Positions 19,721-31,796 of a DNA stretch of 64,000 bases are shown here, in pieces (the first letter of the stretch is position 1; the number at the start of each line of letters is the position of its first letter). The translations under genes were made by a program, and so were the position numbers. The notes under the pieces were generated by a model. It saw only the letters and a program-made list of their open reading frames with translations. It did not search any database and was not told where the DNA came from. This stretch comes from Acidobacteriota bacterium (GTDB taxonomy: Bacteria; Acidobacteriota; Terriglobia; Terriglobales; SCQP01): contig DAHUYO010000011.1 in NCBI GenBank assembly GCA_027315185.1, positions 1 through 64,000 on the forward strand, read 5' to 3'.

Positions 19721-20146
19721 ATGTCCTCCTCCTCCGTGACGCCGGCAGCCACGGCGCCTAGTATGGGCGCCGGCCGGACGTGGGCTGGCCGCATCTTGCA
19801 GGCTCTGGTCGTACTATTTTTGCTCTTCGACGCCGTGACCAAAGTGTTCCGTTCGCCGCAGGTGATGAAAGCCGCGGCGCAGCTGGGCTTCACCCCACGG
19901 GAAATCGTGACCGTTGGCGGCATCCTGCTGATTTGCACGCTGCTATATGTCATCCCGCGAACGGCGATTCTCGGCGCGGTGCTGCTGACCGGCTATTTGG
20001 GCGGAGCCGTGGCGGTCGCCTTTCACGCCCGCATGCCGGTCTTCGAGACGCTGTTTCCGTTCTTGTTCGGCGTGCTGGTGTGGCTGGCCCTGTACCTACG
20101 TCATCCTCGCCTCGGCGGGCTGCTCTCCGGGGCATCGAACCTATAG
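19721..20146 (+). CDS. DoxX-like membrane protein
   Basis: A 141-residue protein with four hydrophobic helices, at about 22-42 (ILQALVVLFLLFDAVTKVF), 62-82, 88-107 and 112-130. The pattern LFDAVTKVFRSPQVMKAAAQLGF fits the DoxX-like family (G/D-x-x-K-L, then the P-x-V-xx-A/M-xx-LG segment). AGGAG precedes the ATG at 19721. These are inner-membrane proteins related to the DoxD/DoxX subunits of thiosulfate-quinone oxidoreductase, but most, like this one, have no proven substrate. Confidence 0.8.
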   Translation: MSSSSVTPAATAPSMGAGRTWAGRILQALVVLFLLFDAVTKVFRSPQVMKAAAQLGFTPREIVTVGGILLICTLLYVIPRTAILGAVLLTGYLGGAVAVAFHARMPVFETLFPFLFGVLVWLALYLRHPRLGGLLSGASNL

Positions 20147-20277
20147 TGCGCGGTCTGGCCACGCTTGCCTAAGCGCGGGAGCGGAATCCGCGGCGCGGAC
20201 ATGGCTAAACGGGCTGGGCTGGACGCGACATCACGTTAGAGGGCGGCGCAGGGCCGCCGCCTCCGGAAAGAGTCGTC

Positions 20278-21195
20278 ATGCACCGCATTACGCCGCATTT
20301 GTGGTTTGATCAGGAGGCCCGCGAGGCGGCGAGCCTTTACACGCAGCTGTTTTCCTCCTCGCGGCTGGAGAGCGTGACCCGCTTGCGCAACACTCCCAGC
20401 GGCGACTGCGACCTGGTGCACTTTACCTTGGCCGACCAGCCTTTCATGGCGATCAGCGCCGGGCCCATGTTCCGCTTCAACCCCGCGATTTCGTTTCTGG
20501 TCCGATGCGGGTCCGAAGCGGAGGTGGATGGCCTATGGGGCCAATTCGCCGAGGGCGGCAAGCCGCACCTGCCGCTGGGCGCCTATCCGTTCAGCCCGCG
20601 TTACGGCTGGGTGGCGGATCGTTTCGGCCTTTCCTGGCAGGTAATGTTAGGGGGCGCCGGCGGCGGCCAGAAGATAACTCCGGTGCTGATGTTCACCGGC
20701 GCCGCCGCCGGCAAGGCGGAAGAAGCGATCCATTTCTATGCGTCGGTGTTCCGCGATGCTCCCCCGCCGGCAGACGCCACGCTAGGCGGCGAGGAGAGCC
20801 ATGCGACGGTCCTCGCGCGCCATGGCGAATCCCAGGCGCCGGAGCGGCCGGGCAGCGTGCAGTTCGCCGTGCTGCGCCTGCGCGGCCAGGAATTTGCCGC
20901 CATGGATAGCGCCCGCGACCACGGGTGCACGTTCAATGAGGCGATCTCATTTCTCATTCCCTGCGACACGCAGGTGGAGATTGACTATTTCTGGAACCGG
21001 TTGGCGGCCGATCCGAATGCCGGCCAGTGCGGTTGGCTGAAGGATCGCTTCGGTGTCTCCTGGCAAGTGGCCCCGGCCATGATGCGGAAGATGCTGTGTG
21101 GCGATGCCCAAGCGGTGGAACGTGTCACCGCCGCATTTCTCGGGATGAAGAAATTTGACCTTGCCGCCTTGCGCCGCGCCTATGAAGGGCGCTGA
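20278..21195 (+). CDS. tandem PhnB-like VOC-fold protein
   Basis: A 305-residue protein with two copies of the PhnB / 3-demethylubiquinone-methyltransferase-like VOC domain. Copy one (1-135) starts ITPHLWFDQEAREAASLYTQLF and ends YGWVADRFGLSWQVM. Copy two (140-270) starts ITPVLMFTGAAAGKAEEAIHFYASVF and ends CGWLKDRFGVSWQVAP. The repeated G-W-x-x-D-R-F-G-x-S-W-Q-V is diagnostic. The VOC fold binds metals or hydrophobic ligands, but no activity is established for this group. GGAAAG lies just before the ATG at 20278. Confidence 0.88.
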   Translation: MHRITPHLWFDQEAREAASLYTQLFSSSRLESVTRLRNTPSGDCDLVHFTLADQPFMAISAGPMFRFNPAISFLVRCGSEAEVDGLWGQFAEGGKPHLPLGAYPFSPRYGWVADRFGLSWQVMLGGAGGGQKITPVLMFTGAAAGKAEEAIHFYASVFRDAPPPADATLGGEESHATVLARHGESQAPERPGSVQFAVLRLRGQEFAAMDSARDHGCTFNEAISFLIPCDTQVEIDYFWNRLAADPNAGQCGWLKDRFGVSWQVAPAMMRKMLCGDAQAVERVTAAFLGMKKFDLAALRRAYEGR

Positions 21196-21233
21196 GAAAA
21201 CGCCGCCGCCCGGCTCAAGGTCAAGCCGGCACG

Positions 21234-21782
21234 GTGCGGCCTAGGGTCCATGCGATGGTGATCGGCAGCGCCGGTCTGCTTCTGTGGCGGCGACGCGGAC
21301 AGGATTCCCGCGGCGGCGCGCCTCCTTCGCGGCCCGAAAACATCGAGGTGTTGCTGGTTCATTTGGGCGGACCGTTCTGGCGAAATCGAGACCAGGGCGC
21401 CTGGTTCATTCCCAAGGGCGAAGCTCTGCCGGGAGAGTCCCTCCTGCGCACCGCCCGCCGTGAATTCGGCGAGGAGACGGGATTTTCTAGCCCCGAGGAA
21501 CCGGTGCGCGATGACGCTTCCAGTCCTTACCTTCCGCTCGGCGCCGCCCGCGTCTCGCACGGCAAGCTGGTGGTTGTCTTCGCCTTCGAGGGCGATTGCG
21601 ATCCCGCCCGCCTGCGGAGCAACACCTTCGAAGTGGAATGGCCGCCGCGGTCGGGCCGGATGCGGACTTTCCCCGAGGCGGACCGTGCTGCCTTCTTTCC
21701 TCTCGCCGCTGCCCAGGCCGTGATTCATCCGTCACAGCGAATCTTCCTAGACCGGCTCTGGCGCCAGCTTCAGCCAAAATAG
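21234..21782 (+). CDS. NUDIX hydrolase
   Basis: A 182-residue protein with the Nudix box GEALPGESLLRTARREFGEETGF (about residues 62-84), which matches G-x5-E-x7-R-E-U-x-E-E-x-G-U and binds Mg for pyrophosphate cleavage. WFIPKGEALPGE directly before the helix, the unusually long proline-rich loop (PPSRPENIEV) and PPRSGRMRTFPEADRAAFF resemble the group annotated as NTP pyrophosphohydrolases that include oxidative-damage nucleotides. The substrate is not determinable. The start is GTG 21234; ATG 21255 would remove seven residues. Confidence 0.85.
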   Translation: MRPRVHAMVIGSAGLLLWRRRGQDSRGGAPPSRPENIEVLLVHLGGPFWRNRDQGAWFIPKGEALPGESLLRTARREFGEETGFSSPEEPVRDDASSPYLPLGAARVSHGKLVVVFAFEGDCDPARLRSNTFEVEWPPRSGRMRTFPEADRAAFFPLAAAQAVIHPSQRIFLDRLWRQLQPK

Positions 21783-22072
21783 CCATTGCCCGCGTGCTGG
21801 GCGGCCGGCGCTCGCTCGGCGGGTAGGGATTGGGGGATTGCGTATTTTGCCGCGCTACTGGGCGCTACCACCAAGGCTCGAGCCGGCTTCGGCGGGCAAA
21901 ACGCAAATCCATTCGCGGGAGCCGCGCCTTTGGGCCCGAGGGCAAAACAGGCGCGTATGCGGGACGCCCCGCCTGCGGCGCAGCCGGGGCCCGCGCCCAT
22001 CCGTGAGGTGACGGCGTCGGACCGCAGCTCGTTGATGGGCCTCCACGTGCAGCGGGTGCGGTGGGAGGGAAT

Positions 22073-23026
22073 ATGGCCGGCGACACGGTGGCATTCAACA
22101 ACATCCTGGTGATGACGGATTTCTCGCCCGCTTCCGACCGGACGCTGCGCTATGCAGCGGGCTGGGCCCGCGCTTCCGGCGCCATGCTGCACGTCGCGCA
22201 TTTCATACGGCCCATGGCGTACGCGCTGGCGGGCGACGCCTATGGCGAGTTGATGAATCGCTTATGGCAGGACGGGCGCGAGGGGCTGGCGGCACTGGAC
22301 CAGAGCGAGATGCTGCGCGACATTCCCCATGCCACCTGGCTCGATCCGGGCGAAATCCTCGATGGCCTGCCGTCGCTGATTTCCGCCCACCAAGTGGACC
22401 TCGTTCTGCTGGCCAGTTCCGGCCGGCGGGGAGTGGGCAAAGTGCTGCTGGGTTCGACCGCCGAGGCGGTCTTCCGCACCACCGGCTGTCCCGTGCTGAT
22501 CGTCGGTCCTGGCGTTGCCGATGCCCGCCTGCAAGCGCCGGGGGTGGTATTGCTGGCCACGGATTTCGGCGCCGCCGCGCAGCGAGCGGCGGCTTATGCG
22601 TTCGCCGTGGCCCAGCAGCAGCACGCGCGACTCTATCTCTTGCATGTCCTGCATCCGCCTGTCGAGGAGTGCTCGCTGTGCACCGCGGAGGTCAAGGCCG
22701 CGCAGGCGCGCTTGCTGGAGCTGGCGCCGCCCGGCGCGCCGCGGGCGGAACTCAACACCATCGTCCATTTTGGCCGGCCCGCAGAGGAAATCGTCAAAAC
22801 CGCCCGCGAGCTCACAGCCGATCTAGTGGTTCTGGGCGCACGGCAGCCACCCCAGTTCACCTTGTACTCCGGCTGGGCGACCGCCTATGAGGTCCTCGGC
22901 GACGCCCCCTGCCCGGTGCTAACGTTGCGCGCGCCTGGCGGGCAGCCGGACCGTGCGCAGACTCCCCAGCAATGGGCAGTGGGCAGGGACCAAGCCACGG
23001 GAATGGCCTACAACCGCGCCCGATAA
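22073..23026 (+). CDS. tandem UspA-domain universal stress protein
   Basis: A 317-residue protein with two Usp domains. The first (8-150) has ILVMTDFSPASDRTLRYA at its start. It keeps the ATP-binding G-x2-G-x9-G-S/T motif in GRRGVGKVLLGSTAEAV, followed by CPVLIVGP. The second (160-295) starts VLLATDFGAAAQRAAAYA and ends CPVLTL, but its nucleotide loop (GARQPPQFTLYSGWATA) is altered, so probably only one site binds ATP. The ATG at 22073 is preceded by GGGAGGGA. Usp proteins support survival under stress or respiratory arrest. A weak sigma-54-like pair lies at 22036-22050. Confidence 0.9.
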   Translation: MAGDTVAFNNILVMTDFSPASDRTLRYAAGWARASGAMLHVAHFIRPMAYALAGDAYGELMNRLWQDGREGLAALDQSEMLRDIPHATWLDPGEILDGLPSLISAHQVDLVLLASSGRRGVGKVLLGSTAEAVFRTTGCPVLIVGPGVADARLQAPGVVLLATDFGAAAQRAAAYAFAVAQQQHARLYLLHVLHPPVEECSLCTAEVKAAQARLLELAPPGAPRAELNTIVHFGRPAEEIVKTARELTADLVVLGARQPPQFTLYSGWATAYEVLGDAPCPVLTLRAPGGQPDRAQTPQQWAVGRDQATGMAYNRAR

Positions 23027-23318
23027 GGCGCGCGGTGCTGAAAGGAGCTACGTCCGTCGCCATTGCCAACACCGTGATTCCGCCGTGCCGCCGGCTGCGT
23101 TCCGCGAGCAGCCGTGGCGCGGATCCTCGGTCGCAGTTGCGCCGACCAGGGCGGATCGCATCCGGCCACGACGTTGGCCAAGGGGAGCGCGATCGCCGTT
23201 TTCCCCAGCCGGGTGATTTTCCCCGCCGCCACTGGGTGAAACCACCCGATTTTGTGAATCATCCCTAATTCCCGCCCGTCGCAAACTGTGTAAACGCTAT
23301 GGAATCAATAGATGCACG
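23027..23318. other. regulatory region of the cupredoxin/porin genes
   Basis: About 290 bases with no gene. This is where binding sites for a sigma-54 activator of the promoter at 23319 would lie, but I could not identify a clear dyad. Confidence 0.35.
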
Positions 23319-23335
23319 TTGGCCACATGCTTGCT
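23319..23335 (+). promoter_or_regulatory. candidate sigma-54 promoter of the cupredoxin operon
   Basis: TTGGCCACATGCTTGCT: GG at 23321-23322 and GC at 23333-23334, 10 bases apart, with both TTGGC and TTGC intact. This is the closest match to the -24/-12 consensus in the window. The predicted start near 23346 leaves a leader of about 25 bases that contains the GGAGG of the cupredoxin gene. Confidence 0.6.
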
Positions 23336-23370
23336 ACTAGCTAAGGCGTAGACGTTCCACGGAGGCATCC

Positions 23371-23997
23371 ATGATCAAGAAATCATTCGCAATCATCACC
23401 ATTCTGCTGTTGGGGACGCTGGTGGCGTTTGCCGCTACGGGCTCGATCAGCGGCAAGATCTCTGGTATTCCCAAACCCCAAACCCTGCCTGGCGCTTTTC
23501 CCGCGCCGCCGGCGCCGGCCGTTGTATATGCCGTGCCGCTGCCGGAGAAGCACTTCGCTCTACCCAAGAAGGTGTTCATCATCGACCAGAAGTACACGTC
23601 GTTCATCCCCCACGTTTCGGGCATCCCAGTGGGCGCGACGGTGGAGTTTAAGAACAATGACACCGTCAATCACAACGTCAACTGGAAAGCCATCGGCGGT
23701 GACAAGGCCTTGGCCAAGAATCTGGGCACCTTTCCCCCAGGGCAATCCGCCACCTATACCTTCAAGCATACGGGCGAGGTGCATTTGCAATGCTCGCTGC
23801 ACCCAGACATGAGCGCCTGGATCTATGTGGCCCCGACGCCCTATGTCACGGTCAGCAAGAGCAACGGGAGCTACTCGCTGGCGAACGTTCCCGATGGCCG
23901 GTATCGCGTCGTCGCCTGGCACAGCGGCACCAAGGAAGCCAGCCAAGTGGTGACCGTGGCGGATCATGCCGTAGTCAATCTGAAGCTGACGAAATAG
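23371..23997 (+). CDS. exported cupredoxin (plastocyanin/azurin-like) protein
   Basis: A 208-residue protein with a signal peptide (1-22, ending AFAATG). A type-1 copper site is visible: His101 in TVNHNV, then Cys141, His144 and Met147 in CSLHPDM. The cupredoxin domain covers about 45-160. The remaining C-terminal part (YVTVSKSNGSYSLANVPDGRYRVVAWH) is a small transthyretin/CarboxypepD-like beta domain. It should act as a periplasmic electron carrier. GGAGG lies 9 bases before the ATG and a strong sigma-54-type promoter is just upstream. The haem-bearing porin follows after 89 bases with a hairpin between. Confidence 0.88.
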   Translation: MIKKSFAIITILLLGTLVAFAATGSISGKISGIPKPQTLPGAFPAPPAPAVVYAVPLPEKHFALPKKVFIIDQKYTSFIPHVSGIPVGATVEFKNNDTVNHNVNWKAIGGDKALAKNLGTFPPGQSATYTFKHTGEVHLQCSLHPDMSAWIYVAPTPYVTVSKSNGSYSLANVPDGRYRVVAWHSGTKEASQVVTVADHAVVNLKLTK

Positions 23998-24009
23998 CTC
24001 ACCCTGGGA

Positions 24010-24040
24010 CGGGCCCGGTGCCGCCGGGCCCGCTTCCGTT
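24010..24040 (+). terminator. hairpin between the cupredoxin and porin genes
   Basis: CGGGCCCGG (24010-24018) pairs with CCGGGCCCG (24024-24032) around a 5-base loop and is followed by CTTCCGTTTGT. It may be a partial terminator that lowers expression of the downstream porin relative to the cupredoxin, or an mRNA-end stabiliser. Confidence 0.45.
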
Positions 24041-24086
24041 TGTAGGCCAGCCGTCAACCGAACCCTAGGGTCATTTCCATCCTGCA

Positions 24087-25442
24087 ATGAAATCTTCGCA
24101 CTCCATCCGCATCGCAACGCTCACCGCGGCGGCGGCGCTGTTTCTCGCCGGCGCGCCCCGCGTGTGGGCCATTCCCAGCTTTGCCCGTCAGACCGGGCTG
24201 CCATGCAGCCGCTGCCATACCACTTTTCCAGAACTGACCGAGTTCGGCCGGGAATTCAAGCTGAACGGCTATACCCTCAGCGGCAAGCACCGCAAGAAGA
24301 TCACCGCTCCCAGCGCAAAGAACAAGAGCGGGCTCTGGATCAACAACAACTTGCCGATCTCGGTGATGTTCCAACTCGCCGACACCCTGGTCGCCAAAAC
24401 CCAGCCGGGCACGCAGAACGGCAGCGTCGAGTTTCCGCAGCAGATGAGCCTGTTTCTGGCCGGCGAGGTCACGCCGCACCTGGGCACGTTCCTGCAAGTG
24501 ACCTACAGCGGCGCCGATGACCACTTTTCCATGGACAACAGCGATATCCGCTATGTCGGATACGGCACGCTGGCGGGCAAGCAGACGGTCTACGGATTGG
24601 ATTTCAATAACAATCCCACGGTCGAGGATCTCTGGAACGATACCCCGGCCTGGGGCTGGCCGTTCGTTTCGCCCGATTCCTCGCCCACGCCCATCGCCGC
24701 GCCGATTCTGGATGGCGGGTTGGCGCAGGACGTCGGCGGCGCCGGCGGCTACATGATGTGGGATCACCACTGGTACGGCGACGTTACGCTGTATCGCTCC
24801 ATGCACCTGGGCGGACCGCAGCCGCCGGATGGCATCGGCTTCGGCACCAACATCGCCGGCGTGGCGCCGTACTGGCGCGGCGCCTACCAAACCACCTGGA
24901 GCGGCGGCCTCAACTATCTCGAAGTCGGCACCTTCGGCATGCACCTGTCCAGCTTTCCCGGCGCGATCGCCGGGCCAGAGGACCACTTCACGGACACGGC
25001 CGCGGACTTCCAATATGAGCGGCGTCTTGGAATCAACTCCTTGTCCGTGCATGGCGCCTATGTTCACCAGAGCGCATCATTAGGCGGCCTTTTGGCGGCC
25101 GGCGAGGCGTCCCAGCTGGCCAACACGCTATCCAATCTGCAAGCCAACGCCATTTATCACTTCGGCGACCGGTACAGCTTGGGCGCGGGGTTTTTCCGCG
25201 ATTACGGTTCCCGGGATCCGGTGCTGTATGCGCCGGGGCCGGTGACGGGCAGCGCCAGCGGCAGTCCGGACTCCGGCGGCTATTTGCTCCAGGCCGGCTT
25301 TTGGCCGGCACAGAACGTGGAGCTCTCGATCCTGTACCAGGGATTCACCACGTTCAATGGCGCCAGCCAAAACTACGACGGCGCCGGGCGCAATGCCGGC
25401 CAGAACAACACGGTGTACACCAACTTGTGGCTGATGTTTTAA
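24087..25442 (+). CDS. outer-membrane beta-barrel protein with an N-terminal haem c motif
   Basis: A 451-residue protein with a signal peptide (1-28). Directly after it comes a single haem c site, C40-S-R-C-H44, in the context FARQTGLPCSRCHTTFPELTEFGREFKLNGY. The rest (60-451) is rich in alternating aromatic/polar strands with Gly/Asn turns and ends in a terminal aromatic residue (WLMF), as in an outer-membrane barrel. The family occurs in many environmental bacteria and is suspected to move electrons across or at the outer membrane; its real substrate is unknown. Its pairing with the cupredoxin supports an electron-transfer role. Confidence 0.75.
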   Translation: MKSSHSIRIATLTAAAALFLAGAPRVWAIPSFARQTGLPCSRCHTTFPELTEFGREFKLNGYTLSGKHRKKITAPSAKNKSGLWINNNLPISVMFQLADTLVAKTQPGTQNGSVEFPQQMSLFLAGEVTPHLGTFLQVTYSGADDHFSMDNSDIRYVGYGTLAGKQTVYGLDFNNNPTVEDLWNDTPAWGWPFVSPDSSPTPIAAPILDGGLAQDVGGAGGYMMWDHHWYGDVTLYRSMHLGGPQPPDGIGFGTNIAGVAPYWRGAYQTTWSGGLNYLEVGTFGMHLSSFPGAIAGPEDHFTDTAADFQYERRLGINSLSVHGAYVHQSASLGGLLAAGEASQLANTLSNLQANAIYHFGDRYSLGAGFFRDYGSRDPVLYAPGPVTGSASGSPDSGGYLLQAGFWPAQNVELSILYQGFTTFNGASQNYDGAGRNAGQNNTVYTNLWLMF

Positions 25443-25450
25443 GCAAAGCC

Positions 25451-25477
25451 CGGGGGCCGCGACGAGCGCGGCCCCCG
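25451..25477 (+). terminator. terminator-like hairpin after the porin gene
   Basis: CGGGGGCCGCG and CGCGGCCCCCG form an 11-bp perfect stem around ACGAG, 8 bases after the stop codon. No U-tract follows. Confidence 0.55.
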
Positions 25478-25517
25478 ACTAATCGAGCCTAGCGAGCACT
25501 TACCGAGCATTCGTTCC

Positions 25518-26417
25518 ATGGCCATCATTAAAGCCCAGGCCGAGCTGAACACCACGACGCACGCCGTCGCTCACCGTCGTGCCTGGGGTCCGCCGCCGGT
25601 GCTGGCGGCGCTGACCGATTTCTCCCCCCGCGCCACGGAAGCTGTAAAGCTTTGCGCGGCACTGGCCGCCCAACTCGAGACGTCCTGGCATTTGGCTCAC
25701 TTCATGCCGCCTGGGCCGCGTTCTTCGCTGCGGGAGTCGCACGCCGCGGTCCTCGCGCAGCGGCAGCGGCTGCATCAACTGGCGGCGGAATTCGCTGCCG
25801 GGGGCAATGCGCCCGTGGTGCATTGCGAACCCCATTCCCTCGCCGCCCGGCTCAATTCCTGGGTGCGGGAAAACGGTATCAGCGTCATCGTCTTGGCGAG
25901 CAGCAATGGCAGCGAGTTCGAGGCGCCGGTGCTGGGTCGCGTGGCGCTGGAGGTGTTGCGCCTGGCCCAGGTGCCGCTGTTGGTGCTCGGTCCCGGCAGC
26001 CAGACACCCCGCGTGCCCATTCGCCGCCTGCTTTGCGCCACGGATCTGCAACCAGGTGCGAAGGCGGCGGTTTGCGCGGCGCTGCCCTTGATGGTTGCGC
26101 GCAACGGCCGGGTGCTGCTTGTCCATGTGGCCGAGCCACGGCCGGACGATTGCCGCGCCTGCGGCACGGGCGCCGCGGATGCGGCGGCGCGCATGTGGGA
26201 GGTGCTGCCGCCGGAGCTTCGTTTCTTCCATGACGCCGAGGTGACGGTGCGCTTCGGACAAGCCGCGGACGCCGTCGTTGCCGCGGCCCATGGCGATGCC
26301 TCCGATCTCATTGTGGTGGGCGCGGGGGCGCCGCGTGCCGGCGCGGCTGCCGGTGCGATGCTGCCCGCGGTGCTGCGCCTGTCCACCTGCCCGGTTTTGG
26401 TTGCCGCCGATGCCTAA
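25518..26417 (+). CDS. tandem UspA-like protein, second copy
   Basis: A 299-residue protein with two Usp-like halves: VLAALTDFSPRATEAVKLCAAL to VPLLVLGPGS (about 28-155), then RRLLCATDLQPGAKAAVCAAL to CPVLVAADA (163-299). Neither half keeps a full G-x2-G-x9-G-S/T loop (LASSNGSEFEAPVLGRVA and GAGAPRAGAAAGAMLPAV are altered). It probably does not bind ATP and may serve as a scaffold. It lies 75 bases after the porin and 170 bases before the sensor kinase, all in one direction. Confidence 0.8.
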   Translation: MAIIKAQAELNTTTHAVAHRRAWGPPPVLAALTDFSPRATEAVKLCAALAAQLETSWHLAHFMPPGPRSSLRESHAAVLAQRQRLHQLAAEFAAGGNAPVVHCEPHSLAARLNSWVRENGISVIVLASSNGSEFEAPVLGRVALEVLRLAQVPLLVLGPGSQTPRVPIRRLLCATDLQPGAKAAVCAALPLMVARNGRVLLVHVAEPRPDDCRACGTGAADAAARMWEVLPPELRFFHDAEVTVRFGQAADAVVAAAHGDASDLIVVGAGAPRAGAAAGAMLPAVLRLSTCPVLVAADA

Positions 26418-26586
26418 AACCAACGTCCCCTCCGCGTCCCGTCTTTGTGCGCGCCCCGCCGTCGCGCCGCGCTGGACCCGCTCCCGGCTGCCGTCCGCGG
26501 TCGGCCGTCGGCTGGAGGGAGGGGGCCACGCGCCGCTCCCGGACGCCGCGATGCGAACGCGGAATAATAGAGACGCGAGGAACGTG

Positions 26587-28518
26587 ATGGGCAAGGATTC
26601 GCAGCTGGCGGCGGAGTTTCTAGACATGGTCGCGGATGCGGTGTTTCTGCGCGACCTTACGGGCGTGATCGGGTATTGGAACCGCGGCGCAGAGATCGTG
26701 TACGGCTGGGCGGCGGAGGAGGCGGAGGGCCGGCGCAGCCAAGATCTTCTCCACACCGAGTTCCCGACCTCCCGCGCGGCGGTGGAACGCGAAGTCTTGG
26801 AGACCGGTACGTGGCATGGGGAGCTGCGGCAAAGGCGGCGGGACGGCGCGCGGATCATGGTGGAGAGCCGCTGGTCGCTACGCCGGGATGCGCGCGGCCA
26901 ACCCAGCGGCATGCTGGAGATCAACACCGACATTACCGCGCGGCATGATGCCGAGATCCGCCAACAATTGCGGCTGGAGATCGGGGAACTGCTGGCCACC
27001 GCCCCGGATTGGCCGGCCGTGGAACAGGCTCTGCCGCGCATAGTGGGTGAAAAGGCGGGCGCGACCGTCGCGGAGCTGTGGGACGTCAGCCGGGGCGAGG
27101 CGCCGGCGCCCGGGCGGCACGCTTGGGTGGCGGAGGCATCCGGCGCTCCCCAGGCCGTGGACGCCGTTTACCCGCTGCGTCGCGGAGAAGGCGTGGCCGG
27201 CCAGGCTTGGGTGATGGGACAGGTGGAGGCGGCCGCGGAGCCGCCGGGCGCAACTATGGCCTTGCCAGTGCTGGCGCGAGGCCGCGTGGAGCGGCTGTTC
27301 GTTTGGCGCGTGCCGGAGCCGCCGCCGCCCGCCTGGCTGCCGATGCTGCGGGACGTCGGGCTGCAACTCGGCCTGTTCTACCACCGCGCCAACAGCGAAG
27401 AGGCGCTGCGCCTCAGCGAAGTGCGCTTCCGCAGCTTGCTGGACAGCGCTCCGGATCCGATCGTCATCGTGGATGGCAGCGGCACGGTCGTCTATGTCAA
27501 CCGCCGCGTCGAGGAGGTGCTGGGCTATGGCGCCGATGAGCTGGATGGTCAGCCGATCGAGCGGCTGCTCCCAGAACGGTTTCGCGGCGCTCACGTGGCG
27601 CTGCGCCGGGGTTTCACCCGCGCGCCGAAAACGCGGCCCATGGGCGCGGGGCTGGAGTTGTTCGCGCGTCATAAGGGCGGAGCCGAAGTGCCGGTAGAGA
27701 TCAGCCTCAGCCCGTTGCAGCTGGGCGGTTCGCTGTTGGTCACGGCGGTAATGCGCGACATCTCCGACCGGCGGCGCGTCGAGGCCGAGGCGCACCGCGC
27801 CCACACCCTGGAGCTGGCCCGCACCGAACACCTGGCCACCTTGGGCGAGGTTGCCGCCGGGCTGGCGCATGAAATCAAGAACCCTTTGGCCGGCATGGCT
27901 TCCGCGCTCGAGGTCTTATCCAGCCGGTTCACCGGACCGGAGCGCGAAGTCATGGCCGAGGTACGGCAGCAGATAACCCGCATTGGCGGCATCGTCGCCG
28001 ACCTGCTCAACTACGCTCGGCCTCGCCCGCCGCGCTTCGCCTTGGGTGATTTGAACGCCGCCGTGCGCCATGCCGCGGAAATCGCCACCCGCGCGTGTGT
28101 GCCCAAGCGGGTTCACCTGGAGTTTGTTGCCGGAACGCTGCCACCGGTCGTGCATGACGCCGAACAAGTGCAGCGCATGGTGCTGAATTTGGCCCTCAAT
28201 GCGCTGGACGCCGTGGCCGAAAATGGCCAAATCGCGGTGCTCACCGAACCTGACGGCGATGGGCATGTCCGGATTCGGGTTCGCGACAACGGCCCCGGAA
28301 TTGCCGCGGGTGATTTGCAGAATATCTTTCGCCCCTTCTACACCACCAAAGGCGGCAAGGGCAATGGTCTGGGGTTGCCGATGTGTCGCCGCATCGCCGA
28401 ACTGCACGGGGGCTCCATCGAGGTCGCCACGCAGCTCGGTCAAGGCACGATCTTTTCCATCGTGTTACCCGCCGCTGGCGGCGAAGCCTCCGCCGGCGCT
28501 GAAGGCAGCTCGGAATGA
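26587..28518 (+). CDS. PAS-GAF-PAS sensor histidine kinase (cytoplasmic)
   Basis: A 643-residue kinase without transmembrane segments. It has PAS 1 (about 8-118; DAVFLRDLTGVIGYWNRGAEIVYGW), a GAF-like region (130-275), and PAS 2 (285-395; SLLDSAPDPIVIVDGSGTVVYVN). The dimerisation domain has His428 in GLAHEIKNPLAGM, and the HATPase domain has NLALNALDAV, DNGPGIA and GGKGNGLGLPM. The H-E-I-K-N-P box places it with NtrB-type kinases that pair with sigma-54 activators. The start is ATG 26587 after GCGAGGAA; ATG 26551 is an alternative. Its last codon overlaps the regulator start (ATGA). It would sense an internal signal such as redox or energy state. Confidence 0.92.
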   Translation: MGKDSQLAAEFLDMVADAVFLRDLTGVIGYWNRGAEIVYGWAAEEAEGRRSQDLLHTEFPTSRAAVEREVLETGTWHGELRQRRRDGARIMVESRWSLRRDARGQPSGMLEINTDITARHDAEIRQQLRLEIGELLATAPDWPAVEQALPRIVGEKAGATVAELWDVSRGEAPAPGRHAWVAEASGAPQAVDAVYPLRRGEGVAGQAWVMGQVEAAAEPPGATMALPVLARGRVERLFVWRVPEPPPPAWLPMLRDVGLQLGLFYHRANSEEALRLSEVRFRSLLDSAPDPIVIVDGSGTVVYVNRRVEEVLGYGADELDGQPIERLLPERFRGAHVALRRGFTRAPKTRPMGAGLELFARHKGGAEVPVEISLSPLQLGGSLLVTAVMRDISDRRRVEAEAHRAHTLELARTEHLATLGEVAAGLAHEIKNPLAGMASALEVLSSRFTGPEREVMAEVRQQITRIGGIVADLLNYARPRPPRFALGDLNAAVRHAAEIATRACVPKRVHLEFVAGTLPPVVHDAEQVQRMVLNLALNALDAVAENGQIAVLTEPDGDGHVRIRVRDNGPGIAAGDLQNIFRPFYTTKGGKGNGLGLPMCRRIAELHGGSIEVATQLGQGTIFSIVLPAAGGEASAGAEGSSE

Positions 28519-29960
28519 AACCGAAGATCCTGATCGTGGATGACGAAAACCTGTTGCGCTGGTCGGCTAGCCAGAAGTGCGAGGAGTGGGGCTATGAGGC
28601 CGCCGCCGCCGCCAGCTTGGCGGAAGCGCGGGAGAAGATTAAGGCCGATCCGCCGGATCTGATCTTGCTGGATGTTCGCCTGCCCGATGGCAACGGCGTG
28701 GACTTCCTGGGCGAACTGCGGCGGGATGTGTTCGCGGGTCCGGTGGTGCTGGTCACCGCCGATCCCCAAATCGAAGACGTCAAGCTGGCCTTGCGCCAAG
28801 GCGCCTACGACTACCTCTGCAAGCCAGTCAACTTCGACGACCTGCAAGTGACGCTGGCAAATGCCCTCGAGACCAGCCGTCTGCGCTCGGAAGTTGCGGC
28901 GCTGCGCGACGAGGCCAGCGGCAGCCGGGAGCGGCTGGAATTCATCGGCCAGTCCACCGCCACGCGTCAGGTCTTGGACTTCGCCCGGCGGGTGGCGCGC
29001 AGCGAAGCCAGCGCCATCCTGCTGCAAGGCGAAAGCGGCACCGGCAAGGATCTGCTGGCCCGCTATATCCACCAGCAATCCTCCCGCAGCCGCCAGCCGT
29101 TCGTGCCGGTCAACTGCTCCGCGATTCCCGAAACGCTGCTGGAAGCGGAGCTGTTCGGTCATGAGAAAGGCGCCTTCACCGACGCCAAGGCGATGAAGAA
29201 GGGGCTCTTTGAAGTCGCCGATCACGGCACGCTGTTTCTGGATGAAATCGGCGAGCTTCCCCTGCCCTTGCAAGCCAAGATCCTCCGCGCCTTGGAGGAC
29301 CAGACGCTGCGCCGCATCGGCGGCTTGCGCGACCTACGCGTGGATTTGCGGGTGATCGCCGCCTCCAATCGCAACTTGGAGGATGAGGTGAAGGCAGGCC
29401 GGTTCCGCGCCGATCTGTTCTATCGGCTGATGGTCATTCCCATCTTCATTCCCCCCTTGCGCAGCCGGCGCGAGGATATTCCGGAGCTGGCCGCCTTTTT
29501 CATCGAGCAATTCAGCCGCCGCTTCGGCAAGCGCATTCGGGGACTGACCCCGGAGGCGGCGGAGATGATGCGCCGCTACGACTGGCCGGGCAATATTCGC
29601 GAGTTGAAGAACGCCATCCAGCGGGCGGTCATCCTCGAGGACGGGGCGGAGATTCGGGGCCTGAATTTGCCCTTCAGCCCGGATAGCGGCCAAACCCTAG
29701 CGGCGGCGTTTCCCACCAGCGATGAGCCGGCGGAGTTGGCCTCATGGCGGAAGCTGCCGGATGGCCGCTTCCTTCCAATATTGCACATTCCCACCGGCGG
29801 CACCTCGCTGGACGAGGTGGAAAAGCTGCTGGTCGCGGACGCGTTGCAGCAATCTGGAGGCAACCAGAGCCGCGCCGCGCGGCTGCTGGACACCACGCGC
29901 GACACCATCCGCTATGCCGTCAAAAAGCACCGCCTGGCGTCTTCCACGATCACGGACTAA
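28515..29960 (+). CDS. sigma-54-dependent NtrC-family response regulator
   Basis: A 481-residue activator. The receiver has Asp53 in LLDVRLPDGNG, with acidic residues in IVDDEN and Lys in CKPVN. The AAA+ domain has Walker A GESGTGKD (172-179), the sigma-54-contact loop GAFTDA (219-224) and Walker B GTLFLDEIGELP; arginine fingers follow in FRADLFYRL. A Fis-type HTH ends the protein (GGNQSRAARLLDTTRDTIRYAVKKH). The contact loop has Asp where GAFTGA has its second Gly; such variants exist in the family. Its start overlaps the kinase stop by 4 bases. It is the likely activator of the -24/-12 promoters in this window. Confidence 0.95.
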   Translation: MKPKILIVDDENLLRWSASQKCEEWGYEAAAAASLAEAREKIKADPPDLILLDVRLPDGNGVDFLGELRRDVFAGPVVLVTADPQIEDVKLALRQGAYDYLCKPVNFDDLQVTLANALETSRLRSEVAALRDEASGSRERLEFIGQSTATRQVLDFARRVARSEASAILLQGESGTGKDLLARYIHQQSSRSRQPFVPVNCSAIPETLLEAELFGHEKGAFTDAKAMKKGLFEVADHGTLFLDEIGELPLPLQAKILRALEDQTLRRIGGLRDLRVDLRVIAASNRNLEDEVKAGRFRADLFYRLMVIPIFIPPLRSRREDIPELAAFFIEQFSRRFGKRIRGLTPEAAEMMRRYDWPGNIRELKNAIQRAVILEDGAEIRGLNLPFSPDSGQTLAAAFPTSDEPAELASWRKLPDGRFLPILHIPTGGTSLDEVEKLLVADALQQSGGNQSRAARLLDTTRDTIRYAVKKHRLASSTITD

Positions 29961-29987
29961 GTAAGCCGGGCGGCGGCAAAAGCGGGC

Positions 29988-31796
29988 CTAGGGGAGTTCG
30001 GGCGCCGTCTCTTCGGCGCGCATTTCGTCCCGGTCTCCCGCCGCGTTCAGCGCTGCCAGTATGTCGGTTTGGCTGAGGATGCCTTGGAGCGCGCCGGCCG
30101 GGGAGACGATCACCAGCAAATGCTTTTCGTGCGCCATGAGCAGCCGCAGCGCATCCTGGAGCGTGCTGTCCGGATCCACCTGCGTCCAGGCCGGGTTCAT
30201 CACCGCACGCACCCGCGTTGTGCTCCATTGTCCAGGCATGACCCGGCTCAAGGCGGACAACGTCAGCGTGCCGACCACGCGCCCGTTATCCAGCACCGGA
30301 TACGCGGCGTGCGGATCCTGACGGGGCGTGGCCTCGGCCCATTGCGCCAGCGTCCAGTCCGCGCCAGCGGCGGTGATGTGGCGGCGCATGACGTCGCGGA
30401 CGCGGATCTTGGTCAGTTCATCGACGGTGACGCCTTCATGCAGCCGCTGGTCGCCGGAGGCCGAGGCCTGCCCGGAGATGGCGTAGGCCACTGCCGCGCC
30501 GATCAGGACGGGAATGATGTAGGCGTGGCCGCCGGTCGCCTCGGCGACGAACACCACCGCCGTCAATGGCGTTTTGTAGCCGGCGGCGATGAAGGCGGCC
30601 ATGCCCACGGCGGCGAACAGGTTCAGCGCGCCGGTGTGCACCACGCTCTGGGCGAAAGCCGTGCCCAGTGCCCCGCCGGTCAAAAACAGCGGCACGAACA
30701 TGGCGCTGACCCCGCCCACGCCGAGCGAAAACAGCGTCGCCAAGAGCTTCAGCACGGCGAAGGCGACCAGTTCGAGCGAGGTGTGAGCATGCTGCAAGAT
30801 GAGCGGCACCGCTTCATAGTTCGGTCCCAAGGGCACCAAATGCCCGGGAAAGAGCAACAGGAACGCCCAGCCGCAGAGCCCCGTCAGCACGCCGCCCACG
30901 GTCATCTTCAGCCAGTGCGGCGCCCGGTGCCGCACCACGAACTCCCGCAGGTGGCGGAAGGTGATGGTGAAGGGCATGGTGATCAGCCCGCAGCCCGCTC
31001 CCAGCAGCGCCGCCCACAGCAGGTCCTGGCGGGTGTAGGTGTGGCTGGCGGCGAAGTTGAACAGCGGCTGGGCGCCCATGAATGACGCCAGGGTGGCGAA
31101 GGCAGTGACCGAGGCCAGCAGCGCGGGCATCAGCGCCTCATGCGCCATGTCGTCCTTATAAGGCATCTCCAGCGCGAAGATGACACCAGTAAACGGGGCG
31201 CGGAAGACCGCCGACATGCCCGCCGCCGCGCCGCTGATCAGCAGAATGCGACGGTCCCGCGGCTCCAGTTTGACCCCCATGCGGCGGAACTGCCCCCACA
31301 GCCAGGAGCCGATCGCGCCGCCGCCATAGATGCTGGGTCCTTCCAGGGCGGCGCTGCCTCCCGAGCCCACCGTGGCGACCGCGGCCAGCAGCTTGGGGAC
31401 AAAACCGCGCATGCGAATGGCCGCCTGGCGCTCGTGATAACTGACGATGATTTCCTCGGTGGAGTGCTCATTGGGATTGGCCGTGAAATATTGCATCAAC
31501 AGTCCGGCGACCAGGAAGCCGGCGGCCAGGCCCGGGATGATGACCATGGGATGGGCAATGTACAGGCGCAGCAGCGGCGGCCAGATCCATTGCAAGATGA
31601 CCTTGACCAGCAGCGTGGTCAGCAAGCCAACGATGCCGCCCATGACCGGCGCGATGATGATCCATTTGTGCAGGTCGCGGGAATAGGTCGCCGCCAGATC
31701 ACGGTGCACCAGGAACCGGTAACGGCGCAGGATAGGGTACCGCCATAACCCGCGGGGCTGGATCGTGTCGTGATGTATTTCCGGCGAGGAGTCCAT
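29988..31796 (-). CDS. CLC-family chloride channel/transporter with C-terminal CBS pair
   Basis: A 602-residue inner-membrane protein. The CLC core (about 35-440) contains GGSAALEGPSIYGGGAIGS, the conserved G-x-E-G-P anion-pathway motif, then ISGAAAGMSAVFRAPFTGVIFALE. LGVGGVSAMFVPLFLTGGALG matches the G-x-F-x-P region, and KTPLTAVVFVAEATGG lies near the end. The glutamate gate position needs alignment to tell exchanger from channel. Residues 470-590 hold two CBS domains (IRVRDVMRRHITAA and TRVRAVMNPAWTQV) that may bind adenine nucleotides. The start is ATG 31796 (MDSSPEIHH); the ribosome site is weak. It converges with the sigma-54 regulator. Confidence 0.92.
   Translation of the reverse strand: MDSSPEIHHDTIQPRGLWRYPILRRYRFLVHRDLAATYSRDLHKWIIIAPVMGGIVGLLTTLLVKVILQWIWPPLLRLYIAHPMVIIPGLAAGFLVAGLLMQYFTANPNEHSTEEIIVSYHERQAAIRMRGFVPKLLAAVATVGSGGSAALEGPSIYGGGAIGSWLWGQFRRMGVKLEPRDRRILLISGAAAGMSAVFRAPFTGVIFALEMPYKDDMAHEALMPALLASVTAFATLASFMGAQPLFNFAASHTYTRQDLLWAALLGAGCGLITMPFTITFRHLREFVVRHRAPHWLKMTVGGVLTGLCGWAFLLLFPGHLVPLGPNYEAVPLILQHAHTSLELVAFAVLKLLATLFSLGVGGVSAMFVPLFLTGGALGTAFAQSVVHTGALNLFAAVGMAAFIAAGYKTPLTAVVFVAEATGGHAYIIPVLIGAAVAYAISGQASASGDQRLHEGVTVDELTKIRVRDVMRRHITAAGADWTLAQWAEATPRQDPHAAYPVLDNGRVVGTLTLSALSRVMPGQWSTTRVRAVMNPAWTQVDPDSTLQDALRLLMAHEKHLLVIVSPAGALQGILSQTDILAALNAAGDRDEMRAEETAPELP

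Follow-up and report, generated by a model that had tools for sequence, protein, structure and literature searches.

A probable switchable electron route through the outer membrane of an Acidobacteriota bacterium, related to the iron oxidase Cyc2

Described cytochrome-porins and related electron-transfer systems

Cyc2 proteins of Acidithiobacillus, Mariprofundus and Gallionellaceae, together with Cyt572 of Leptospirillum, are cytochrome-porins. They are defined by a porin fold, a minimum length of 365 aa and the motif AXPXFAR[Q/K][T/Y] ahead of a single CXXCH haem site, with PXL behind it; iron-oxidising activity is verified for three homologues, and the functions of cluster 3 are the most uncertain among the Cyc2 clusters (PMC8406198). 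Acidobacterial relatives of the Leptospirillum cytochrome were noted earlier in a network study (PMC10654088). For A. ferrooxidans, one model joins Cyc2, cytochromes, bc1 and rusticyanin, a copper protein, in a chain that works in both directions (PMC8790237). Another related group is formed by the Rieske/cytochrome b complexes of Kuenenia, Kuste4569-4574 and Kustd1480-1485, which carry an NAD(P) oxidoreductase and a hexa- or octahaem cytochrome c and for which NAD(P)H production by bifurcation is proposed; an acceptor reaction had not been proposed for Kustd1480-1485 (PMC12954380).

Here we describe a locus in a 64,000-nucleotide stretch of the genome of an uncultured member of the Acidobacteriota (contig DAHUYO010000011.1, positions 1 to 64,000; hereafter, the window). 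It contains a cupredoxin-barrel pair, genes of universal stress proteins (Usp), a PAS kinase and a sigma-54 response regulator. Its gene content, motifs and predicted folds, the conserved pairing and the conserved promoter-like site were established computationally. The barrel is similar to Cyc2 in its signal peptide, single CXXCH, the AXPXFAR[QK][TY] and PXL motifs, a length above 365 aa and a 16-strand barrel. However, unlike in Cyc2 systems, its partner is a different cupredoxin, quinol-linked complexes are encoded alongside in relatives, and a sigma-54 two-component pair is present in the window. The set of a cytochrome-porin, a periplasmic copper protein and a bc-type complex makes the system similar to the A. 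ferrooxidans chain, with the bc-type complex present only in relatives and none beside the window pair; in contrast to that chain, the PDB matches of the cupredoxin include amicyanin and plastocyanin and no rusticyanin. Operons of relatives resemble those of Kuenenia in having Rieske, cytochrome b, subunit IV, octahaem cytochrome c and FAD/4Fe-4S NAD(P) oxidoreductase genes, but the Acidobacteriota version shares its operon with genes for a cupredoxin and an outer-membrane cytochrome-porin, and it is absent from the window locus. The Geobacter ext cluster (extHIJKLMNOPQS) likewise combines a porin-like outer-membrane protein with c-type and b-type cytochromes, whereas by its description it has no fused cytochrome-porin or cupredoxin. 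By analogy with MtrAB/MtoAB, electrons would cross the outer membrane via a barrel; those systems use a separate multihaem cytochrome, while the small barrel described here has a single haem fused to it and no multihaem cytochrome gene lies beside the window pair. The parts are thus of known kinds. In the literature searched, mostly outside subscription journals, we found no description of the plastocyanin-like dedicated partner, the link of the pair to Rieske/b complexes of the NAD(P)-linked kind, its control by a sigma-54 two-component system or the copper-to-haem exchange described below.

The cupredoxin-barrel pair and its control

The two open reading frames named in the preliminary description lie where it placed them, the cupredoxin gene at 23371-23997 and the barrel gene at 24087-25442, both on the forward strand, as are all features of the locus given below. 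The cupredoxin is a secreted protein of 208 aa. PF00127 matches residues 76-149 with 22.0 bits against a cut-off of 21.2, and PF13620 (CarboxypepD_reg) covers the C-terminal residues 155-206. The complete His-Cys-His-Met site claimed for it is formed by H101, C141, H144 and M147, which together with the Pfam match makes it a predicted type I copper protein. It is neither plastocyanin nor amicyanin proper, as it scores far below the cut-offs of the plastocyanin/amicyanin NCBIfam equivalogs (21.7 against 87.85 and 20.3 against 110.2 bits). In the PDB the family profile hits 39 sequences, among them amicyanin, plastocyanin and, by their cupredoxin domain, nitrite reductases; none is named rusticyanin, which speaks against this assignment as well. 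Hence, the copper partner looks like a separate recruitment.

The barrel protein has 451 aa, 16 predicted strands and a terminal Phe. Exactly one CxxCH, at residues 40-44 (codons at 24204-24218), directly follows the signal peptide, as had been claimed. The full Cyc2 consensus (PMC8406198) is found once in the six-frame translation of the window, namely at residues 28-50 of this protein (24168-24236; AIPSFARQTGLPCSRCHTTFPEL, that is AIPSFARQT-GLP-CSRCH-TTF-PEL). Pfam, NCBIfam and PDB searches with the barrel sequence alone returned no family; therefore, the identification rests on the motif, the fold and full-length homologues. An AlphaFold2 model built with 45 homologues has 16 strands with pLDDT 74 and pTM 0.75, with the haem segment poorly resolved (pLDDT about 41-43). 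Foldseek matches the model to 16-strand general porins and OprP/OprO, with TM-scores of only 0.4-0.5. Since the diagnostic motif is present, the barrel is, by motif, length and predicted fold, a Cyc2-like fused cytochrome-porin. This corrects the preliminary description, where barrels of this type were called uncharacterised.

The pairing is conserved far beyond close relatives. A survey of 297 Acidobacteriota genomes gave 106 barrel matches, whose positions we compared with those of 136 listed cupredoxins using a 5 kb limit. At least 33 of the 106 barrel matches have a listed cupredoxin homologue within this distance, while about 0.25 would be expected for random placement in 3.5-Mb genomes. 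Co-occurrence across genomes, suggested in the preliminary description as a check, is thereby established. Seen from the cupredoxin side, a barrel is found no farther than 5 kb away for 23 of the top 30 matches, and no farther than 9 kb for 26. The retrieved loci contain 59 distinct barrel-side cupredoxins; every one retains the H..C..H..M pattern, 58 share the strand of the barrel, and the gap has a median of about 160 bp. In the family of the window none of the nine orthologous loci has lost the pair, with barrel identities as low as 63%; the barrel gene of one genome (G301) is split over two contigs. Each family is by itself widespread (barrels in 83 and cupredoxins in 167 of the 297 genomes), which is the one point in favour of chance neighbours. 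However, the co-localisation is about a hundredfold above expectation, the pair is kept in all nine family orthologues, and the pairing recurs across distant genera. We conclude that the pairing is not due to chance, the probability of which we consider negligible.

A putative sigma-54 (-24/-12) promoter, TGGCCACATGCTTGCT, is located at 23320-23335, 51 bp 5' of the cupredoxin start. A TGGC-N8-TGC[AT] site occurs 51-72 bp upstream of the cupredoxin gene in nine of nine family loci. The chance of such a site is 0.002 to 0.03 per locus, and the product of these values is optimistic, since the pattern was relaxed by one base after the first scan. A single site is weak evidence, as the window has four of this type where 1.6 would be expected. 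In the more distant family loci the flanks hardly align, yet a -24/-12-like site is present at the equivalent place. The scoring of sigma-54 sites over more remote loci gave a mixed picture. The genome also encodes rpoN. Thus, a GG/GC-spaced -24/-12 site, an enhancer-binding activator and rpoN occur together, as would be expected for a sigma-54-controlled operon, and the sigma-54-type control predicted earlier is supported in sequence terms by the site in all nine loci, rpoN and the NtrC-type regulator of the same gene run.

The regulator (28515-29960; PF00158, PF00072, PF02954) overlaps by 4 bp the gene of a PAS-PAS sensor histidine kinase (26410-28518), whose start in turn overlaps the end of a tandem-domain Usp gene (25518-26417; two PF00582 domains). 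In the genus, the cupredoxin, barrel, Usp, kinase and regulator genes form a row on one strand. Three other genomes of the family have the kinase and regulator genes as divergent neighbours. Both adjoin it in six of the nine family loci, and orthologues of the kinase are found beside the pair in G302, G301, G304, G299 and G300. A homologue of the regulator with 38% identity or more is found no farther than 5 kb from a barrel in 17 locus records, five of which are second copies of the same family loci, and more distant loci too have an NtrC-type regulator beside the pair. The window regulator has GAFTDA in place of the usual sigma-54-contacting GAFTGA loop.

Another tandem-domain Usp gene (22061-23026; two PF00582 domains) precedes the cupredoxin gene. 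Usp and the pair occur together only in the genus: the first Usp adjoins the pair only in L079, L098, L099 and L108, and the second is near it in the genus only. Both flanking Usp proteins have a CxxC in their second half (ECSLC and DCRAC), possibly a redox or metal site. The hairpin reported between the cupredoxin and barrel genes is real, a 10-bp GC-rich stem at 24010-24032, but it is modest (z = -1.8), and its conservation is seen only within the genus, where two congeners keep the stem and vary the loop. An Rfam search of 20000-30000 returned nothing.

Operons of relatives and exchange of the carrier

In many relatives one operon encodes the barrel, the cupredoxin, an FAD/4Fe-4S pyridine-nucleotide oxidoreductase, Rieske, cytochrome b, subunit IV, an eight-haem cytochrome c with eight CxxCH motifs and a further cytochrome c. 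Such operons, for example L034, have the gene set of an NAD(P)-linked Rieske/cytochrome b complex. This set is not found in the window. A Rieske/eight-haem module elsewhere in the same genome is not supported either, as a search of this genome, which is 86% complete, returned no eight-haem subunit. The best PDB matches of the relatives' Rieske subunit are the Kuenenia proteins Kuste4569 (9rk4, E 1e-21) and Kustd1480 (9rk3). For the cytochrome b there is a match, below the curated cut-off, to ExtP from the selenite/tellurite cluster of Geobacter. In a second clade, which includes the cultured Acidipila rosea DSM 103428 (L158), the neighbours of the barrel are Rieske and a cytochrome b to which c domains are fused. 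No cupredoxin is visible in the Rieske/cytochrome b clade of the barrel family. One barrel-Rieske-cytochrome b locus (L142, JAKATV010000186.1) is on a contig labelled Planctomycetota, which may be due to transfer or to wrong binning of an acidobacterial contig.

A second barrel, with 56% identity, is encoded on contig C258 of the window genome. Barrels close to this copy are found beside molybdopterin-like, 4Fe-4S, NrfD and pentahaem genes, or beside a NapC/NirT protein. We read the former set as an Alternative-Complex-III-like or Qrc-like complex; such sets lie near Cyc2-like barrels of Acidobacteriota at L110:4634-9565 and L120:11904-16315. The thread common to the barrel loci of relatives is the quinone pool. 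The window copy is a stripped form, with the pair, Usp, the PAS kinase and the sigma-54 response regulator.

Divergent from the second barrel is a gene whose product aligns with the cupredoxin on both sides of an insertion and has lost all four copper ligands. The insertion, at the first ligand loop, is a cytochrome c domain with CAVCH and a GSGMP Met. Carriers of this kind occur in G000, G302 and G300 (L003:2969-3988, L113:8797-9684 and L120:8743-9690, each on the minus strand). AlphaFold2 gives a good model of the cupredoxin and C-terminal halves and a poor one of the inserted domain, and Foldseek returns only matches with E about 0.01 or worse; the copper-to-haem swap is thus derived from the sequence alignment, by which this partner has lost its copper site and gained a cytochrome c domain. 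Plasmids of Caballeronia, Acidiphilium, Polymorphobacter, Methylocystis and Ideonella carry barrel homologues with 28-38% identity and a query coverage of at least 91%. In each of the five Pseudomonadota plasmid homologues examined, the barrel has a c-type cytochrome behind it, and the Caballeronia plasmid has a HiPIP upstream. Taken together, cupredoxin, haem-inserted and cytochrome c neighbours indicate that the barrel usually keeps a soluble carrier partner while the kind of carrier changes. The carrier is usually exchanged but not lost.

Plasmids of two acidophiles, pACRY03 of Acidiphilium cryptum (L183), typed conjugative, and CP084173 of A. ferrooxidans (H3), carry barrel homologues with 34.4% identity each over the same span, which suggests horizontal spread. 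In a quick maximum-likelihood tree the window barrel falls into a cupredoxin-only clade of eight rows (support 99). The haem-swapped clade lies nearby and the full-operon clade at a distance, the deep branches being weakly supported. As barrels of several separate clades have cupredoxins with them, the pair may tentatively be regarded as old and the window form as reduced.

Proposed mechanism and direction of electron flow

We suggest that electrons probably take a switchable route through the outer membrane by way of the pair. The path to or across this membrane put forward in the preliminary description agrees with the Cyc2 signature and the 16-strand model. Leaving direction aside, a two-piece, regulated conduit between periplasm and outside is the likely function. 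Cofactor loading, location, partner contact, direction and substrate are what we infer in the steps below.

As in Cyc2, the barrel would reside in the outer membrane and hold its single haem by the N-terminal segment, either inside the pore or facing the periplasm. Its dedicated periplasmic shuttle would be the cupredoxin, carrying single electrons between the barrel haem and respiratory components of the inner membrane. Most likely, the PAS kinase and the NtrC-type regulator switch the pair on from the sigma-54 promoter. As quinol-linked complexes (two designs of Rieske/cytochrome b, Alternative-Complex-III-like and NapC/NirT) accompany the barrels of relatives, the conduit most likely serves the quinone pool. 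The proposed path connects, in either direction, an inner-membrane quinol-linked complex, periplasmic carriers, the cupredoxin, the barrel haem and the outside, by analogy with the Cyc2-rusticyanin-bc1 chain of A. ferrooxidans. Haem-attachment and oxidase genes are present in the genome. The low confidence of the modelled haem segment, the low TM-scores to porins, the lack of a bc-type complex beside the window pair, the eight-haem subunit not found in the genome and the family members with no visible cupredoxin speak against this reading.

We slightly favour outward flow, from quinol to an extracellular acceptor such as Fe(III), over inward flow with Fe(II) oxidation, because the sibling complexes are quinol-linked and one kind has an NAD(P) oxidoreductase. 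In the outward case, to which we give about even chances, electrons would pass from quinol via bc, Alternative Complex III or NapC to periplasmic cytochromes, the cupredoxin and the barrel, and then to extracellular Fe(III) or a similar acceptor. In the full operons the NAD(P) oxidoreductase would allow the Rieske/b complex to bifurcate, with the high-potential electron leaving through the conduit. This agrees with the quinol-linked operon content of relatives, with the closeness of their Rieske subunit to complexes proposed to make NAD(P)H, one of them lacking a proposed acceptor, with the similarity to ExtP and with the listing of Acidobacteria among acidophilic iron reducers (PMC8790237). 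However, the characterised cytochrome-porins oxidise iron, copper proteins are usually of high potential, so that the acceptor must be too, and the window copy stands without the complex. A Cyc2-type iron oxidase, passing electrons from Fe2+ through the barrel haem to the cupredoxin in the role of rusticyanin and on to a haem-copper oxidase, would let a heterotrophic or mixotrophic host gain energy from Fe2+; we regard it as a plausible alternative of somewhat lower probability. The Cyc2 signature with its three verified iron oxidases (PMC8406198), two COX1 genes in the genome and the origin of close relatives from acid mine and peat, as judged by record titles only, are consistent with it. 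The quinol-linked sibling complexes, one type with the NAD(P) oxidoreductase, and the lack of a recognised oxidase gene beside the pair point the other way. RuBisCO was not found in the incomplete genome, which speaks only against an autotrophic iron oxidiser; heterotrophic use is compatible with it.

The cupredoxin, porin and Usp genes side by side could also be taken for stress genes that handle copper or toxic metals. We hold this to be very improbable, as Usp accompanies the pair only in the genus, the recurrent neighbours are respiratory with no recognised copper-resistance gene among them, and the copper site is replaceable by haem. Returning to outward flow, its most specific form is a speculative one, which we consider rather unlikely to hold in full. 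The Acidobacteriota cytochrome-porin and cupredoxin would be the extracellular exit of electron-bifurcating Rieske/b complexes, which make NAD(P)H from quinol and send electrons to a high-potential outside acceptor, for example Fe(III). The window pair would then be a stand-alone form under sigma-54 control, and the sister locus would have swapped the copper centre for a haem domain.

Acidobacteriota are abundant in soils and acid waters. Their role in iron cycling is unclear, and the conserved, regulated pair gives specific proteins to assay. The full operons of relatives suggest a testable acceptor route for a class of Rieske/b complexes of which at least one, Kustd1480-1485, had no acceptor proposed. 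Cyc2-like sequences are taken to mark iron oxidation; should this branch conduct electrons outward, such a marker would mislead. Last, the exchange of copper for haem within a single carrier scaffold would illustrate cleanly how nature replaces a cofactor.
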